Shown piece after piece: positions 46,093-64,000 of a DNA stretch of 64,000 nucleotides. Position 1 is the stretch's first letter. Every line of letters begins with the position of its first letter. The notes under the pieces were generated by a model. The model was not told the origin of the DNA and did not search any database. It saw nothing but the letters and a program-made list of their open reading frames with translations. Source of the DNA: Diacronema lutheri (Eukaryota > Haptophyta > Pavlovophyceae > Pavlovales > Pavlovaceae). The stretch is taken from assembly GCA_019448385.1 (NCBI GenBank), contig JAGTXO010000016.1, positions 372,001 to 436,000 on the forward strand, given 5' to 3'. The translations under genes were made by a program, and so were the position numbers.

Positions 46093-48298
46093 ACCCCCAC
46101 CCCCACCCCACCCCCCCCCCCCCTCCCCACTTCCTTTCAAATTCACTTTTTCTTTTCTCCCTCATTCCTTCCTTTTCCCTTTTTTTTTTAATTTTCCCCC
46201 GCTTCTCTTTGCATTTTAGCTCAAATACGGCAACGTGTCGCTCATCCCAACTTCCGCTTTCCTCCATTCCCTCGAGCTTGGCGAGGCGGTGCAGTTCATC
46301 GACAATGCGGGCAAGGAGAGCGAAGTGAAGATGCTCGGTGCGTTGCAGCCCCCGCCTCCCCACCTGATCCCCACCCCTTCCACATCAATGCGTTGCAGCT
46401 ACCCCCAATCCCAACATCCCCCTCCCCCCCCCTCTCCCCCTCCCATGCTGAGCGCAATGGCACCCGAGCATGGCTCGCGCTTCCCGCCCTGTGTGGCAAT
46501 ACGCACGGCCGTTACAAGCGTTGATCGCCCGCCACGTGCCGCGCTGGCCGCGCCGCGCCTCGCCTCGTCCTCGCCAGGCGTCACGCCGCCGCTCGCCAAC
46601 GGCATCTGCTCGGTGCTCCTCGAGATCAACGGCGAGCCGCGCATCGTCTCGGTGCGCGACAGCAAGGTGCGATGCGCCGCCATTGCTGCGCTCCGCTTTG
46701 GCGCGTGCTGCCGCCGCCATTGCTGCGCTGCCGCTTTGGCGCGTGCTGCCGCCGCCATTGCTGCGCTGCCGCTTTGGCGCGTGCTGCCGCCGCCATTGCT
46801 GCGCTCCGCTTTGGCGCGTGCTGCGCGCTGCCGTGCGGCCATGCCCCCGCAGTTGCGGCAGCGGCTAGCCAGCCCTCCCCCTGGGTGCATGCTGCTGCCG
46901 CCATCGCTCCTCGCAGTTGCGGCTAGCCCTCCCCCTGGGTGCATGCTGCTGCCGCCATCGCTCCTCGCAGTTGCGGCTAGCCCTCCCCCTGGGTGCATGC
47001 TGCTGCCGCCATCGCTCCTCGCAGTTGCGGCTAGCCCTCCCCCTGGGTGCATGCTGCTGCCGCCATCGCTCCTCGCAGTTGCGGCTAGCCCTCCCCCTGG
47101 GTGCATGCTGCTGCCGCCATCGCTCCTCGCAGTTGCGGCCAGCCCTCCCCCTGGGTGCATGCTGCTGCCGCCATGGCTCCTCGCAGTTGCGGCTAGCCCT
47201 CTCCCTGGGTGCATGCTGCTGCCGCCATCGCTCCTCGCAGTTGCGGCTAGCCCTCCCCCTGGGTGCATGCTGCTGCCGCCATCGCTCCTCGCAGTTGCGG
47301 CCAGCCCTCCCCCTGGGTGCATGCTGCTGCCGCCATGGCTCCTCGCAGTTGCGGCTAGCCCTCCCCCTGGATGCATGCTGCTGCCGCCATGGCTCCTCGC
47401 AGTTGCGGCCAGCCCTCCCCATGGGTGCATGCTGCTGCCGCCATCGCTCCTCGCAGTTGCGGCTAGCCCTCCCCCTTGGTGCATGCTGCTGCCGCCATGG
47501 CTCCTCGCAGTTGCGGCTAGCCCTCCCCCTGGGTGCATGCTGCTGCCGCCATCTCTCCTCGCAGTTGCGGCCAGCCCTCCCCCTGGGTGCATGCTGCTGC
47601 CGCCATCTCTCCTCGCAGTTGCGGCCAGCCCTCTCCCTGGGTGCATGCTGCTGCCGCCATCTCTCCTCGCAGTTGCGGCCAGCCCTCCCCCTGGGTGCAT
47701 GCTGCTGCCGCCATCGCTCCTCGCAGTTGCGGCTGCGGCCATTGCGCGCAGCGCGCCGTGCCCCCCCCCCCCCCCCCCCCCAGCGCGCAGGCGAACGGCC
47801 CGACGCGCTCACGCGTGCCCGCGCCGCCCTCCGCGCCGTTCGCCGCCCGGCCGCGCGCACCGCCGCCACGGCCCCGTGCGCAGCTCGCCCCGAAATCGGG
47901 CACGAAGGGCGAGAAGGCGGACCCGATTGACGACGGTTCGGTCGGCTCGCCGCTGTCCGGCGTCGTCGTCGCGCTCAAGGTGGACAAGGGGGACACCGTT
48001 GAGAAAGGGCAGCCCATTGCCGTCATGTCGGTACGCGCAGGCAAGGCTGCGCTGGCGCGCGGCCGGCGCCGCGCGCTGCGGCGCGCGGCGCGCGGCGTTC
48101 ACTGTTGCGTCCCCACGCGCGCGCGCGCGCCGTCGGGCACTGCTGCACCAGGCGATGAAGATGGAGACGACTGTGACTGCGCCCATCACGGGCGTGGTGG
48201 AGCGCCTCGCCGTGAGCGCCGGCGCGTCGATCGAAGTGGGCGACCTGATCGTGTACATCAAGGGCGGCGCCGACTTCATAGCGTCCAAGCAAAATTAG
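41818..48298 (+). CDS. Pyruvate carboxylase, probably plastid-targeted (about 1,275 aa)
   Basis: Exons: 41818-43000, 43204-44428, 44613-45293, 45681-45918, 46220-46337, 46578-46666, 47884-48030, 48152-48298; exactly 1,276 codons. The enzyme makes oxaloacetate from pyruvate, bicarbonate and ATP. Domains in order: biotin carboxylase (about 102-545; [23 protein letters not shown]-grasp [25 protein letters not shown]), carboxyltransferase (about 620-940; [29 protein letters not shown] with the carboxylated Lys) and the biotin carrier (about 1190-1275; [14 protein letters not shown], Lys biotinylated). About 100 residues precede the enzyme core and include a signal-like segment ([20 protein letters not shown]) and an Ala/Arg-rich stretch. 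Intron 6 (46667-47883) is mostly a 54-bp minisatellite. The start may instead be one of the Met codons at residues 13 or 15. Confidence 0.92.
46682..46840. repeat. About 38-bp tandem repeat in pyruvate carboxylase intron 6
   Basis: Four imperfect copies of a unit containing CGCTTTGGCGCGTGCTGCCG then CCGCCATTGCTGCGCT, directly upstream of the larger minisatellite. Confidence 0.8.
46868..47735. repeat. 54-bp minisatellite, 16 copies, in pyruvate carboxylase intron 6
   Basis: Sixteen head-to-tail units of 54 bp (AGCCCTCCCCCTGGGTGCAT...CGCTCCTCGCAGTTGCGGCT). A few point variants recur: TGG for TCG, CTCTCC for CTCCCC, CCAT and TTGG variants, and TCTCTCC in the last units. Every unit contains TCGCTCCTCGCAG or a close variant, a 3'-splice-site-like string. 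In one + frame the array is open and reads [18 protein letters not shown] repeated, but spliced pyruvate carboxylase does not include it. Confidence 0.93.
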
Positions 48299-57494: not shown

Positions 57495-57706
57495 ACTGGC
57501 AGCGCTCCTACCATGAGGCGAACGATTGGTCGAGCATGCCGAAGATGATGAACTGCGCGATCGTGCAGCTCGCCATCAAGAGCACCATGAACGTGGACGT
57601 CGCCGACGCCACCTGCGCGCGCGAGAGCGTGACCGGGGAGGAGGAGGAGGAGGAGGAGGAGGGGGGGGGGGGGGGGGCGGGTAGAGGTTTGCGGGGAGGG
57701 GGGGGG

Positions 57707-57741
<35 letters not shown>

Positions 57742-58296
57742 GAGGAGGAGGAGGGCGGGTAGAGGTTTGTGGGGGGGGGGGGGGGGGGGGGATTGGGGGA
57801 GGGGTGACACGTGGCTCAGTGCGCGCGCTCTCCGCCCGAGCGGAGTCCGGGGCTGCATGCAGCAGCCACCGGAGTGGTTGCGCGCGCGTCGACTTTGCTT
57901 CCCGCGCTTCCAGCCCGTGCACGCCATGGACGGGGGCGGGGCGGGGGGGGGGGGGGGGGACTGTTGGGAGGAAGTTGGGAGGGGAGTTTCCGCTATAGCA
58001 GCGCGCCGCGGCTGGTGGCGTCCAGCGGCGCGGCGCGCGCGCAGAGTCGACACGCGCACACGCTGCCGCGACTGCCGCCTGCTCGCGCGGCTGGGCGGCG
58101 ACGGCGGCGGCGGCGGTGACGGCGGCGGCGGCGGCGGCAACGTACTTGTGGGTTCAGTTGGAGCTCGAGGAAGATAGGGCCAAGCACCATGCCGCCGCCC
58201 ACGCCAAGGAGGCCCGCGGCAATCGCGGCGACGCCGACGACGGCGCACGAGTGGCGGGCGCGCTCGTGTGTCCAGATCACGTCGCCTTCCGCGTAC
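56780..58296 (-). CDS. TauE/SafE-family membrane transporter, C-terminal half (5' part beyond right edge)
   Basis: Three terminal exons (transcript order): 58296-58146, 57612-57512, 57005-56780; about 159 residues. Upstream exons are not in the window. TauE/SafE proteins are eight-helix exporters linked to sulfite, sulfoacetate and other organic anions. The exon starting at 58296 begins [17 protein letters not shown] and contains the repeat-2 signature [18 protein letters not shown], then [19 protein letters not shown]. The following exons give [38 protein letters not shown] and a last helix [18 protein letters not shown]. All joins are in phase with GT donors. The acceptor at 58297-58298 is the prototype of the minisatellite that fills the upstream intron. 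Confidence 0.82.
57300..57490. repeat. About 36-bp tandem repeat plus poly-G in TauE intron
   Basis: Four to five copies of a unit containing GGCAGCGCGCAGACAGTCAG then CAGGGGGGCACACT, ending in a G run of about 26 bases. It lies in the intron between the last two exons. Confidence 0.85.
57640..57760. repeat. (GGA)n and poly-G tracts in TauE intron
   Basis: Two GGA trinucleotide runs separated by G homopolymers and duplicated GGGCGGGTAGAGGTTTG strings. On the transcribed strand this is a C/T tract upstream of the acceptor at 57613-57614. Confidence 0.85.
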
Positions 58297-61200
58297 CTTG
58301 GCGGAAAGGAGAGAAGAAAGGGGAAGGGGGGGGGGGGGGGGGGATTGGTGACGGCGGGGATGGGGGGGGGGGTCGCCTTCCGCGTACCTTGGCGGAAAGG
58401 AGAGAAGAAAGGGGAAGGGGGGGGGGGGGGGGGGGATTGGTGACGGCGGGGAGGGGGGGGGGGGTCGCCTTCCGCGTACCTTGGCGGAAAGGAGAGAAGA
58501 AAGGGGAAGGGGGGGGGGGGGGGGGATTGGTGACGGCGGGGAGGGGGGGGGGTCGCCTTCCGCGTACCTTGGCGGAAAGGAGAGAAGAAAGGGGAAGGGG
58601 GGGGGGGGGGGGGATTGGTGACGGCGGGGATGGGGGGGGGGGTCGCCTTCCGCGTACCTTGGCGGAAAGGAGAGAAGAAAGGGGAAGGGGGGGGGGGGGG
58701 GGGATTGGTGACGGCGGGGATGGGGGGGGGGTCGCCTTCCGCGTACCTTGGCGGAAAGGAGAGAAGAAAGGGGAAGGGGGGGGGGGGGGGGGGATTGGTG
58801 ACGGCGGGGAGGGGGGGGGGGTCGCCTTCCGCGTACCTTGGCGGAAAGGAGAGAAGAAAGGGGAAGGGGGGGGGGGGGGGGGGATTGGTGACGGCGGGGA
58901 TGGGGGGGGGGGTCGCCTTCCGCGTACCTTGGCGGAAAGGAGAGAAGAAAGGGGAAGGGGGGGGGGGGGGGGATTGGTGACGGCGGGGAGGGGGGGGGGT
59001 CGCCTTCCGCGTACCTTGGCGGAAAGGAGAGAAGAAAGGGGAAGGGGGGGGGGGGGGGGGGGATTGGTGACGGCGGGGAGGGGGGGGGGTCGCCTTCCGC
59101 GTACCTTGGCGGAAAGGAGAGAAGAAAGGGGAAGGGGGGGGGGGGGGGGGATTGGTGACGGCGGGGATGGGGGGGGGGGTCGCCTTCCGCGTACCTTGGC
59201 GGAAAGGAGAGAAGAAAGGGGAAGGGGGGGGGGGGGGGATTGGTGACGGCGGGGATGGGGGGGGGGGTCGCCTTCCGCGTACCTTGGCGGAAAGGAGAGA
59301 AGAAAGGGGAAGGGGGGGGGGGGGGGGGGGGGGATTGGTGACGGCGGGGAGGGGGGGGGGGGGTCGCCTTCCGCGTACCTTGGCGGAAAGGAGAGAAGAA
59401 AGGGGAAGGGGGGGGGGGGGGGGGGGGGGGATTGGTGACGGCGGGGAGGGGGGGGGGTCGCCTTCCGCGTACCTTGGCGGAAAGGAGAGAAGAAAGGGGA
59501 AGGGGGGGGGGGGGGGGGGGGGGATTGGTGACGGCGGGGATGGGGGGGGGGTCGCCTTCCGCGTACCTTGGCGGAAAGGAGAGAAGAAAGGGGAAGGGGG
59601 GGGGGGGGGGGGATTGGTGACGGCGGGGAGGGGGGGGGGGGGTCGCCTTCCGCGTACCTTGGCGGAAAGGAGAGAAGAAAGGGGAAGGGGGGGGGGGGGG
59701 GGGGGGGGATTGGTGACGGCGGGGAGGGGGGGGGGTCGCCTTCCGCGTACCTTGGCGGAAAGGAGAGAAGAAAGGGGAAGGGGGGGGGGGGGGGGGATTG
59801 GTGACGGCGGGGATGGGGGGGGGTCGTCGCCTTCCGCGTACCTTGGCGGAAAGGAGAGAAGAAAGGGGAAGGGGGGGGGGGGGAGGGATTGGTGACGGCG
59901 GGGATGGGGGGGGGGGTCGCCTTCCGCGTACCTTGGCGGAAAGGAGAGAAGAAAGGGGAAGGGGGGGGGGGGGGGGGGGGGATTGGTGACGGCGGGGATG
60001 GGGGGGGGGGTCGCCTTCCGCGTACCTTGGCGGAAAGGAGAGAAGAAAGGGGAAGGGGGGGGGGGGGGGGATTGGTGACGGCGGGGATGGGGGGGGGGGT
60101 CGCCTTCCGCGTACCTTGGCGGAAAGGAGAGAAGAAAGGGGAAGGGGGGGGGGGGGGGGATTGGTGACGGCGGGGAGGGGGGGGGGTCGCCTTCCGCGTA
60201 CCTTGGCGGAAAGGAGAGAAGAAAGGGGAAGGGGGGGGGGGGGGGGGATTGGTGACGGCGGGGAGGGGGGGGGGGGTCGCCTTCCGCGTACCTTGGCGGA
60301 AAGGAGAGAAGAAAGGGGAAGGGGGGGGGGGGGGGGGGGGGGATTGGTGACGGCGGGGATGGGGGGGGGGGTCGCCTTCCGCGTACCTTGGCGGAAAGGA
60401 GAGAAGAAAGGGGAAGGGGGGGGGGGGGGGGATTGGTGACGGCGGGGATGGGGGGGGGGGTCGCCTTCCGCGTACCTTGGCGGAAAGGAGAGAAGAAAGG
60501 GGAAGGGGGGGGGGGGGGGGGGGATTGGTGACGGCGGGGAGGGGGGGGGTCGCCTTCCGCGTACCTTGGCGGAAAGGAGAGAAGAAAGGGGAAGGGGGGG
60601 GGGGGGGGGGGGATTGGTGACGGCGGGGATGGGGGGGGGGGTCGCCTTCCGCGTACCTTGGCGGAAAGGAGAGAAGAAAGGGGAAGGGGGGGGGGGGGGG
60701 GATTGGTGACGGCGGGGAGGGGGGGGGGTCGCCTTCCGCGTACCTTGGCGGAAAGGAGAGAAGAAAGGGGAAGGGGGGGGGGGGGGGGGGGGGGGGGGAT
60801 TGGTGACGGCGGGGATGGGGGGGGGGGGGTCGCCTTCCGCGTACCTTGGCGGAAAGGAGAGAAGAAAGGGGAAGGGGGGGGGGGGGGGGGATTGGTGACG
60901 GCGGGGAGGGGGGGGGGTCGCCTTCCGCGTACCTTGGCGGAAAGGAGAGAAGAAAGGGGAAGGGGGGGGGGGGGGGGGGATTGGTGACGGCGGGGATGGG
61001 GGGGGGGGTCGCCTTCCGCGTACCTTGGCGGAAAGGAGAGAAGAAAGGGGAAGGGGGGGGGGGGGGGGGGATTGGTGACGGCGGGGATGGGGGGGGGGGT
61101 CGCCTTCCGCGTACCTTGGCGGAAAGGAGAGAAGAAAGGGGAAGGGGGGGGGGGGGGGGGGATTGGTGACGGCGGGGAGGGGGGGGGTCGCCTTCCGCGT

Positions 61201-64000
61201 ACCTTGGCGGAAAGGAGAGAAGAAAGGGGAAGGGGGGGGGGGGGGGGGATTGGTGACGGCGGGGATGGGGGGGGGGGTCGCCTTCCGCGTACCTTGGCGG
61301 AAAGGAGAGAAGAAAGGGGAAGGGGGGGGGGGGGGGGGATTGGTGACGGCGGGGAGGGGGGGGGGTCGCCTTCCGCGTACCTTGGCGGAAAGGAGAGAAG
61401 AAAGGGGAAGGGGGGGGGGGGGGGGGGGGGGGATTGGTGACGGCGGGGATGGGGGGGGGGGGTCGCCTTCCGCGTACCTTGGCGGAAAGGAGAGAAGAAA
61501 GGGGAAGGGGGGGGGGGGGGGGGATTGGTGACGGCGGGGAGGGGGGGGGGTCGCCTTCCGCGTACCTTGGCGGAAAGGAGAGAAGAAAGGGGAAGGGGGG
61601 GGGGGGGGGGGGGGGATTGGTGACGGCGGGGATGGGGGGGGGGGTCGCCTTCCGCGTACCTTGGCGGAAAGGAGAGAAGAAAGGGGAAGGGGGGGGGGGG
61701 GGGGATTGGTGACGGCGGGGATGGGGGGGGGGGTCGCCTTCCGCGTACCTTGGCGGAAAGGAGAGAAGAAAGGGGAAGGGGGGGGGGGGGGGGGGGGGGG
61801 GGATTGGTGACGGCGGGGATGGGGGGGGGGGTCGCCTTCCGCGTACCTTGGCGGAAAGGAGAGAAGAAAGGGGAAGGGGGGGGGGGGGGGGGGGGGATTG
61901 GTGACGGCGGGGATGGGGGGGGGGGTCGCCTTCCGCGTACCTTGGCGGAAAGGAGAGAAGAAAGGGGAAGGGGGGGGGGGGGGGGATTGGTGACGGCGGG
62001 GAGGGGGGGGGGTCGCCTTCCGCGTACCTTGGCGGAAAGGAGAGAAGAAAGGGGAAGGGGGGGGGGGGGGGGGATTGGTGACGGCGGGGATGGGGGGGGG
62101 GGTCGCCTTCCGCGTACCTTGGCGGAAAGGAGAGAAGAAAGGGGAAGGGGGGGGGGGGGGGGGGATTGGTGACGGCGGGGAGGGGGGGGGGTCGCCTTCC
62201 GCGTACCTTGGCGGAAAGGAGAGAAGAAAGGGGAAGGGGGGGGGGGGGGGGGGGATTGGTGACGGCGGGGATGGGGGGGGGGGTCGCCTTCCGCGTACCT
62301 TGGCGGAAAGGAGAGAAGAAAGGGGAAGGGGGGGGGGGGGGGGGGATTGGTGACGGCGGGGATGGGGGGGGGGGTCGCCTTCCGCGTACCTTGGCGGAAA
62401 GGAGAGAAGAAAGGGGAAGGGGGGGGGGGGGGGATTGGTGACGGCGGGATGGGGGGGGGGGTCGCCTTCCGCGTACCTTGGCGGAAAGGAGAGAAGAAAG
62501 GGGAAGGGGGGGGGGGGGGGGGATTGGTCACGGCGGGGAGGGGGGGGGGTCGCCTTCCGCGTACCTTGGCGGAAAGGAGAGAAGAAAGGGGAAGGGGGGG
62601 GGGGGGGGGGGGGGGGGGATTGGTGACGGCGGGGATGGGGGGGGGGGTCGCCTTCCGCGTACCTTGGCGGAAAGGAGAGAAGAAAGGGGAAGGGGGGGGG
62701 GGGGGGGGGGGGATTGGTGACGGCGGGGATGGGGGGGGGGGTCGCCTTCCGCGTACCTTGGCGGAAAGGAGAGAAGAAAGGGGAAGGGGGGGGGGGGGGG
62801 GGGGATTGGTGACGGCGGGGATGGGGGGGGGGGTCGCCTTCCGCGTACCTTGGCGGAAAGGAGAGAAGAAAGGGGAAGGGGGGGGGGGGGGGGGGGGGGG
62901 GGATTGGTGACGGCGGGGATGGGGGGGGGGGTCGCCTTCCGCGTACCTTGGCGGAAAGGAGAGAAGAAAGGGGAAGGGGGGGGGGGGGGGGGGGGATTGG
63001 TGACGGCGGGGATGGGGGGGGGGGGTCGCCTTCCGCGTACCTTGGCGGAAAGGAGAGAAGAAAGGGGAAGGGGGGGGGGGGGGGGATTGGTGACGGCGGG
63101 GAGGGGGGGGGGTCGCCTTCCGCGTACCTTGGCGGAAAGGAGAGAAGAAAGGGGAAGGGGGGGGGGGGGGGATTGGTGACGGCGGGGATGGGGGGGGGGG
63201 TCGCCTTCCGCGTACCTTGGCGGAAAGGAGAGAAGAAAGGGGAAGGGGGGGGGGGGGGGGATTGGTGACGGCGGGGAGGGGGGGGGGTCGCCTTCCGCGT
63301 ACCTTGGCGGAAAGGAGAGAAGAAAGGGGAAGGGGGGGGGGGGGGGGGGATTGGTGACGGCGGGGATGGGGGGGGGGGTCGCCTTCCGCGTACCTTGGCG
63401 GAAAGGAGAGAAGAAAGGGGAAGGGGGGGGGGGGGGGGGATTGGTGACGGCGGGGATGGGGGGGGGGGTCGCCTTCCGCGTACCTTGGCGGAAAGGAGAG
63501 AAGAAAGGGGAAGGGGGGGGGGGGGGGGGGGATTGGTGACGGCGGGGAGGGGGGGGGGTCGCCTTCCGCGTACCTTGGCGGAAAGGAGAGAAGAAAGGGG
63601 AAGGGGGGGGGGGGGGGGGGGGATTGGTGACGGCGGGGATGGGGGGGGGGGTCGCCTTCCGCGTACCTTGGCGGAAAGGAGAGAAGAAAGGGGAAGGGGG
63701 GGGGGGGGGGGGGGATTGGTGACGGCGGGGATGGGGGGGGGGGGGTCGCCTTCCGCGTACCTTGCCGGAAAGGAGAGAAGAAAGGGGAAGGGGGGGGGGG
63801 GGGGGGGATTGGTGACGGCGGGGAGGGGGGGGGGTCGCCTTCCGCGTACCTTGGCGGAAAGGAGAGAAGAAAGGGGAAGGGGGGGGGGGGGGGGGATTGG
63901 TGACGGCGGGGAGGGGGGGGGGTCGCCTTCCGCGTACCTTGGCGGAAAGGAGAGAAGAAAGGGGAAGGGGGGGGGGGGGGGGGGGATTGGTGACGGCGGG
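58297..64000. repeat. About 90-bp minisatellite array (60+ copies) filling a TauE intron, open at right edge
   Basis: Each unit reads, on the + strand, GTCGCCTTCCGCGTACCTTG, GCGGAAAGGAGAGAAGAAAG, GGGAAG, a G run of about 13-28, ATTGGTGACGGCGGGGA, an optional T, and a second G run of 8-13. Length varies only through the G runs. The strings flanking the first unit match the end of the intron and the first 17 bases of the TauE exon (58296 leftward), so the unit is a copied intron/exon junction. Rare point variants: GGAGGGATT at 59882, TCGTCGCC at 59824, TGGTCACGG at 62525, CCTTGCCGG at 63763. The array continues past base 64000. Confidence 0.97.

Follow-up and report, generated by a model that had tools for sequence, protein, structure and literature searches.

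Tandem duplication of an intron-exon boundary has several precedents, as boundary minisatellites called mirages are known from lancelets, in Adh3, in the globin genes BflGb6 and BflGb9 (PMC3087553) and in PGBD5 (PMC3902484). In BflGb6, the accessible part of the globin report describes a unit that combines the 3′ end of an intron with the 5′ part of an exon, of which one haplotype has 6 copies and another 3, many of them with AG/GT, and presents RT-PCR results that suggest undisturbed splicing (PMC3087553). Related boundary duplications are known in potato (PMC4974935) and human (PMC10809524), and for potato RdRp the available text describes an intron-exon structure with 3′ splice signals that was likewise copied (PMC4974935). 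The arrangement studied here had been put forward, in the original prediction, as one for which no standard description was known; that is not borne out, as mirages (PMC3087553, PMC3902484) and the tandem AGGT sites of human UBC (PMC10809524) are both on record in the portions of these papers at hand. In the sense of a boundary minisatellite, mirages appeared in lancelets only within the accessible parts of the open literature searched (PMC3087553, PMC3902484, PMC7960049, PMC2812944), which is no proof of absence elsewhere; in the nematode paper among these, as far as its excerpted text goes, the same word names a transposon family (PMC7960049). Our literature search found no earlier report of such an array in the haptophyte lineage.

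The window analysed here is a stretch of 64,000 nucleotides from the haptophyte Diacronema lutheri (C11:372001-436000, where C11 is our contig label). Its minus strand carries a junction array that is very probably a mirage-type minisatellite within an intron of a TauE gene, an intron that would be removed without any change to the mRNA. TRF reported a period of 90, 71.0 copies and a score of 11045 for this array, the highest of 55 non-overlapping arrays (period at least 20, at least 2.5 copies) in 284 kb of the D. lutheri genome, and the array runs 741 bases past the window edge. A genome-wide search (43.49 Mb, 103 contigs) with the probe CTTCTCTCCTTTCCGCCAAGGTACGC, allowing up to 2 mismatches, returned 71 matches (70 exact and 1 with one mismatch), every one of them within C11:430291-436681 and thus inside the array; the probe read backwards, as a control, gave 0 matches genome-wide. 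The structure is far beyond chance. A transposon or introner was rejected as its source, the motif being confined to one locus in the genome. An assembly artefact is conceivable, although the published assembly was built from PacBio reads at about x315, according to the part of its report at hand (PMC8379373), which counts against it. The number of Cs in each C-run is the least certain part of the array sequence.

The host is a TauE membrane-transporter gene of nine exons on the minus strand. The exons were read by hand and then joined by script, giving a 744-aa product without an internal stop. The features are as follows, on the scale of the window, so that positions above 64000 lie beyond its edge.

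58281-64741 (58281..64000 in the window), minus strand: junction minisatellite, from TRF and sequence reading
68832-68428, minus strand: TauE exon 1, hand-read, beyond the window
68128-67872, minus strand: TauE exon 2, hand-read, beyond the window
67504-67392, minus strand: TauE exon 3, hand-read, beyond the window
67196-67093, minus strand: TauE exon 4, hand-read, beyond the window
66541-65858, minus strand: TauE exon 5, hand-read, beyond the window
64995-64802, minus strand: TauE exon 6, hand-read, beyond the window
58297..64000 in the window (6505 nt whole), minus strand: TauE intron 6, with its donor GTGCGT at 64801, beyond the window
58297..58325, minus strand: innermost pyrimidine tract and AAG acceptor, the sole copy with continuing coding sequence, also picked by the self-trained gene model
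58296-58146, minus strand: TauE exon 7, whose first 16 nt form the exon portion of each unit
57612-57512, minus strand: TauE exon 8, hand-read; the self-trained gene model ends this exon at 57524
57005-56780, minus strand: TauE exon 9, hand-read, ending in TGA

The proposal that copies of a junction multiplied within a TauE intron is borne out by the upstream exon, by the open 744-aa frame and by a Pfam TauE match of 55.3 bits against a cut-off of 32.6. The upstream exon, which the original prediction had proposed to search for, lies past the window edge and in frame, so the gene looks intact, and a broken gene was rejected. The donor of intron 6 (GA/gtgcgt, the slash marking the splice boundary here and below) and the innermost AAG/G keep the frame as GGT TAC GA/G TAC GCG GAA, a splice that would link GGTTACGA to GTACGCGGAAGGCGACGTG. 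All eight introns have AG acceptors, and their donors, from intron 1 to intron 8, are GTGCGC, GTGGGC, GTGCGT, GCGCGC, GTGCGT, GTGCGT (the array intron), GTACGT and GTAGGA, that is, GT in 7/8 and GC in 1/8. The Pfam match does not test the join of exons 6 and 7, because its best stretch (604-717) begins after the join residue, 586; on fragments, the version with a shorter splice scored slightly higher (42.3 versus 40.4 bits). An intronless paralog encoded on C69 can be aligned through the junction (query residues 5-208, junction at residue 65; 28% identity, E 3e-12) and has some 13 additional residues close to it. A gene model that was self-trained, from its predictions for C11:1-200000 and 372001-456000 (284 kb) and with the array masked, agrees on the innermost acceptor; it gives intron 6 another donor (exon end 64925, not 64802), ends exon 8 at a slightly different place and makes the gene shorter on its 5′ side, and the alignment of the C69 paralog supports the longer exon 6, which ends at 64802. 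A second minisatellite lies in the preceding TauE intron (65152-65800 on the window scale, period about 199, 3.2 copies).

On the minus strand, each unit runs from a C-run through a pyrimidine tract to CCGCCAAG, the AAG acceptor, and then into GTACGCGGAAGGCGAC. All 70 full units (84-101 bp, mean 90.9) obey this one grammar, and a diverged leader of 140 nt brings the total to 71 AAG/GTACGC junctions. The original prediction, which had seen more than 60 tandem copies of a splice acceptor and exon start, therefore stands in its main lines: 63 copies lie in the window and 71 in all, and the intron end and exon piece are present in 70/70 units, the exon piece being 16 nt and not 17, with a final C that is indistinguishable from the C-run. 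An AG acceptor and a GTACGC donor had been claimed for every copy and occur in 71/71 junctions, with the GT directly abutting the AG rather than following one base later. Only the innermost copy, as had also been proposed, enters coding sequence, running into GTGATCTGG, and all others run into a C-run. The authentic boundary is thus kept at the exon-proximal end, with the extra copies intronic and, as the DNA reads, the upstream exon 6505 nt off with the frame kept.

Variation within the array is slight. With the C-runs collapsed, 63/70 units take one of two forms (35 and 28) that differ by a single A, and the remaining 7 differ slightly; since the units hardly differ from one another except in the C-runs, the constant AG/GT alone shows no selection. 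Unit lengths are mixed modulo 3 (remainder 0 in 23, 1 in 29 and 2 in 18; n = 70), so no coding constraint is visible, and a coding repeat was ruled out on these lengths and on the variable C-runs. G makes up 60% of the plus strand of the array, which holds 142 G-runs of at least 8. Long G/C homopolymer runs plausibly favour instability in such an array. The leader between the donor and the first acceptor consists of a C-run, TCCCGCGCGCCGTGACCAATCCCTGCCC, a second C-run and TTTTTCTTCTCTCCTTTCCGCCAAG, and the upstream-most copy is diverged and presumably the ancestral form (TCCCGCGCGCCGTGACCAATCCCTGCCC, TTTTTCTTC). Its GTGACC recurs in 3/70 units, 2 of which are among the six units nearest the leader. 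The units correspond to a tidied form of the leader to which the 16 exon nt have been added, and they are joined where ...GGCGAC borders a C-run.

This pattern of joins would fit one tandem duplication, from the intronic C-run to base 16 of the exon, followed by amplification. The duplication would have had its left end in the C-run of the intron and its right end 16 nt into the exon, so that the duplicated piece comprised the whole 3′ splice module (presumably branch site, pyrimidine tract and AAG) together with the start of the exon. Unequal exchange or slippage, probably aided by the long C/G homopolymer runs, may then have led to the 71 junctions. Extra copies would fall inside the intron, because the junction at the array end stays joined to the real exon, and the mRNA would be unchanged provided that the net outcome of splicing links the upstream donor with the innermost acceptor. 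Removal as a whole or in several steps would give the same product, because each unit runs GT...AG over 84-101 nt. Most likely, to judge from the sequence, the TauE gene is expressed with the enlarged intron removed. The upstream copy suggests growth of an intron that already existed; the C69 paralog aligns across the intron site, but with an identity (28%) too low to date the intron.

How such an intron might be removed is suggested by the properties of its sites. Two versions of the gene model were used: the first (170 introns, 118 of them GT) admitted GC donors, and the control took GT donors and intron-side positions only (142 introns). GC donors may be common here, at 52/170 in the first version, which may overcount them. 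It is tempting to speculate that splicing from the donor to an early acceptor rebuilds a GTACGC donor, and that repetition of this step lets the 6.5-kb intron leave in pieces of about 90 nt, a possible but on balance doubtful course. The first acceptor lies 140 nt from the donor, against a median of 144.5 nt and a 95th percentile of 441 for the 170 predicted introns, and units of 84-101 nt are inside the predicted range (10th percentile 63.8, 25th 97). Because the units have the size and splice signals of ordinary predicted introns, stepwise removal by way of up to 70 zero-length exons would be possible. Counting exon positions, AAG/GTACGC stands at the 71st percentile of the 118 predicted GT donors and the intron's own donor at the 20th, whereas with intron-side positions only GTACGC drops to the 34.5th percentile, below the 56th of the intron's own GTGCGT; the two versions disagree on the strength of GTACGC, and both percentiles stand. 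The array acceptor falls at the 44th percentile with exon positions, the 29th without them and the 36th in the control. Neither half of the junction scores outside the spread of predicted sites, and the junction would be usable on paper, though not exceptional. Against stepwise removal, the usual predicted acceptor in the control is CAG (117/142) and AAG is rare (9/142), and lancelet mirages are reported as spliced normally, with no recursive intermediates described in the accessible part of that paper (PMC3087553). A GT directly after the acceptor begins the exon at 27/142 predicted introns, compared with 1.4-6.9% GT over the three codon positions in coding sequence, and 5/8 acceptors of the TauE gene are AG/GT. 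Perhaps the spliceosome clears the intron in many short steps at up to 70 near-identical, dual-specific AG/GT sites (zero-length exons), and splice-transparent lengthening of introns has been reused by the genome at donors and at this acceptor. If so, the array could grow freely, because all routes to the innermost acceptor give one mRNA. We regard this fuller version as rather unlikely.

Use of alternative acceptors, with part of the array kept in the mRNA as proline-rich inserts or broken frames, seems improbable. The three sense-strand frames of the 6505-nt intron hold only 4 stops, and 21/70 possible tails preserve the frame as far as the normal stop; set against this, 49/70 tails shift the frame, with stops in the tail (8), in the downstream exons (15) or beyond the normal stop (26), and the mixed unit lengths show no coding constraint. 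That the array blocks splicing, leaving the TauE gene dying or silent, is very improbable, for although intron 6 (6505 nt) far exceeds the longest other intron predicted in the 284-kb sample (2639 nt), the nine hand-read exons keep the frame with GT or GC donors and AG acceptors throughout, and array-bearing introns seem to be tolerated, because a 34-copy, 74-bp array also sits in the predicted intron of another gene, 21 nt before a predicted exon.

Several further junction arrays appear to be present in this genome. Searches for three AG/GTRCGY or AG/GTGCGY at repeat spacing gave 49 matches versus 0 in a mirrored control, 29 versus 11 and 43 versus 2, many of them within one array and some probably due to chance. 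Eight loci were read in sequence, a count that leaves out matches on C36, C69, C78, C101 and C19 (273927), and four of these read as donor-side junction arrays.

C97:205600-208100 (copies from 206001 to about 207690), plus strand: 42-bp unit, about 41 copies by match spacing; 17 exon nt in 2/2 extra copies measured
C43:3800-5500, minus strand: 12 donors GAG/GTGCGT at a spacing of 78-124, with long G-runs; 30 nt identical to the exon end in 10/11 extra copies and 15 nt in one
C48:850-1800, minus strand: GDP-mannose 4,6-dehydratase gene, with 6 donors in the stretch read; 14 exon nt in 5/5 extra copies
C59:47900-48400, plus strand: AAG/GTGCGCTGGGGGG units, 5 donors; 3 exon nt (AAG only) in 4/4 extra copies

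A 1995 paper (NAR 23:1854, as cited in PMC2572611) reportedly describes a minisatellite that supplies several splice donors to a transcript induced by interferon; it would share splice sites within a minisatellite with the TauE array, but on the donor side. The C48 exon, which ends ...TFVTRK, matches 11 PDB sequences, 10 of them along its full 38 residues and one along residues 2-38, and is the only one of the four with PDB support; the other three depend on open frames or a motif. At C97 and C43 the exons were judged by an open, protein-like frame, and the C59 exon (FVCQVSGCGK) is one that we take to be zinc-finger-like. The length of the C97 unit is divisible by 3 and, at the upstream end read, the exon frame runs open through it, so that its copies could stay in the mRNA. 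Among the loci read in sequence, the TauE array is the sole acceptor-side case. AGGT arrays on C8, on C74 and at 203.5 kb on C43 were set aside for want of a clear exon, and so was a 24-bp repeat on C19 for reading as coding sequence; none of these four loci showed a clear junction. GCAGGT arrays, considered as further acceptor-type cases, were too noisy (289 matches versus 109 mirrored).

Within the 284-kb sample, 39 arrays (period at least 14, at least 2.5 copies, at least 85% match) were found, 20 of them mostly in predicted introns; the TauE array overlaps a predicted exon by 16 nt, and the array at C11:88106-88236 is ambiguous. Junction arrays are a minority of the intronic arrays here. 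The 34-copy array mentioned above (C11:33953-36526), which ends just short of its exon, has a pyrimidine-rich unit without a splice junction, and adjacent minisatellites of 38 bp x 4.2 and 54 bp x 16 lie in a predicted intron on the plus strand of the window (46675-47734).

An acceptor array of 71 junctions and four donor-side-like arrays in a compact haptophyte genome suggest that mirages form a wider and potentially large class. Such arrays, in which dozens of acceptors or donors of nearly equal quality follow one another, amount to natural experiments in splice-site competition, and RNA reads alone would reveal whether the spliceosome chooses the nearest site, the outermost site or every site successively. 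They also provide intermediate stages, both for introns that lengthen and for introns gained through tandem duplication.

Several known systems share features with the TauE array. Drosophila ratchet points, as presented in the accessible text, likewise juxtapose acceptor and donor as AG/GT, but lie in long introns and involve a cryptic exon with its own donor (PMC8605326), whereas the TauE array has 70 near-identical putative sites, at intervals of about 91 nt, ahead of the final one. Human UBC shares tandem AGGT sites that are usable as donor or acceptor; its units, according to the portion of the report at hand, are coding, 228 nt long, in frame and variable in number in the mRNA (PMC10809524), whereas the TauE units are intronic and mixed modulo 3 (23/29/18), and the in-frame 42-bp array on C97 is nearer to UBC. 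The AGGT model of intron gain (Rogers and Hellsten), as outlined in the available part of PMC4974935, also starts from a duplicated segment with AGGT and a pyrimidine tract, each unit of which is a potential intron; here, in contrast, an old intron probably grew, with no new exon or intron position seen. The mirages are closest. As the DNA reads, the TauE array fits the structural definition of a mirage minisatellite: an intron-exon boundary is duplicated in tandem in the manner of a minisatellite, at the 3′ side of the intron as in BflGb6 (lancelet mirages also occur on the donor side), and in the accessible part of the lancelet report AG/GT is likewise found in many units and edge units escape homogenisation (PMC3087553). 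It differs from the BflGb6 haplotypes, described there with 6 and 3 units, in its haptophyte host and its 71 junctions, and in that every unit keeps AG/GT and is rich in C homopolymers. What emerges is an unusually long array of the known mirage kind, whose recursive removal would be an attractive, if tentative, hypothesis.
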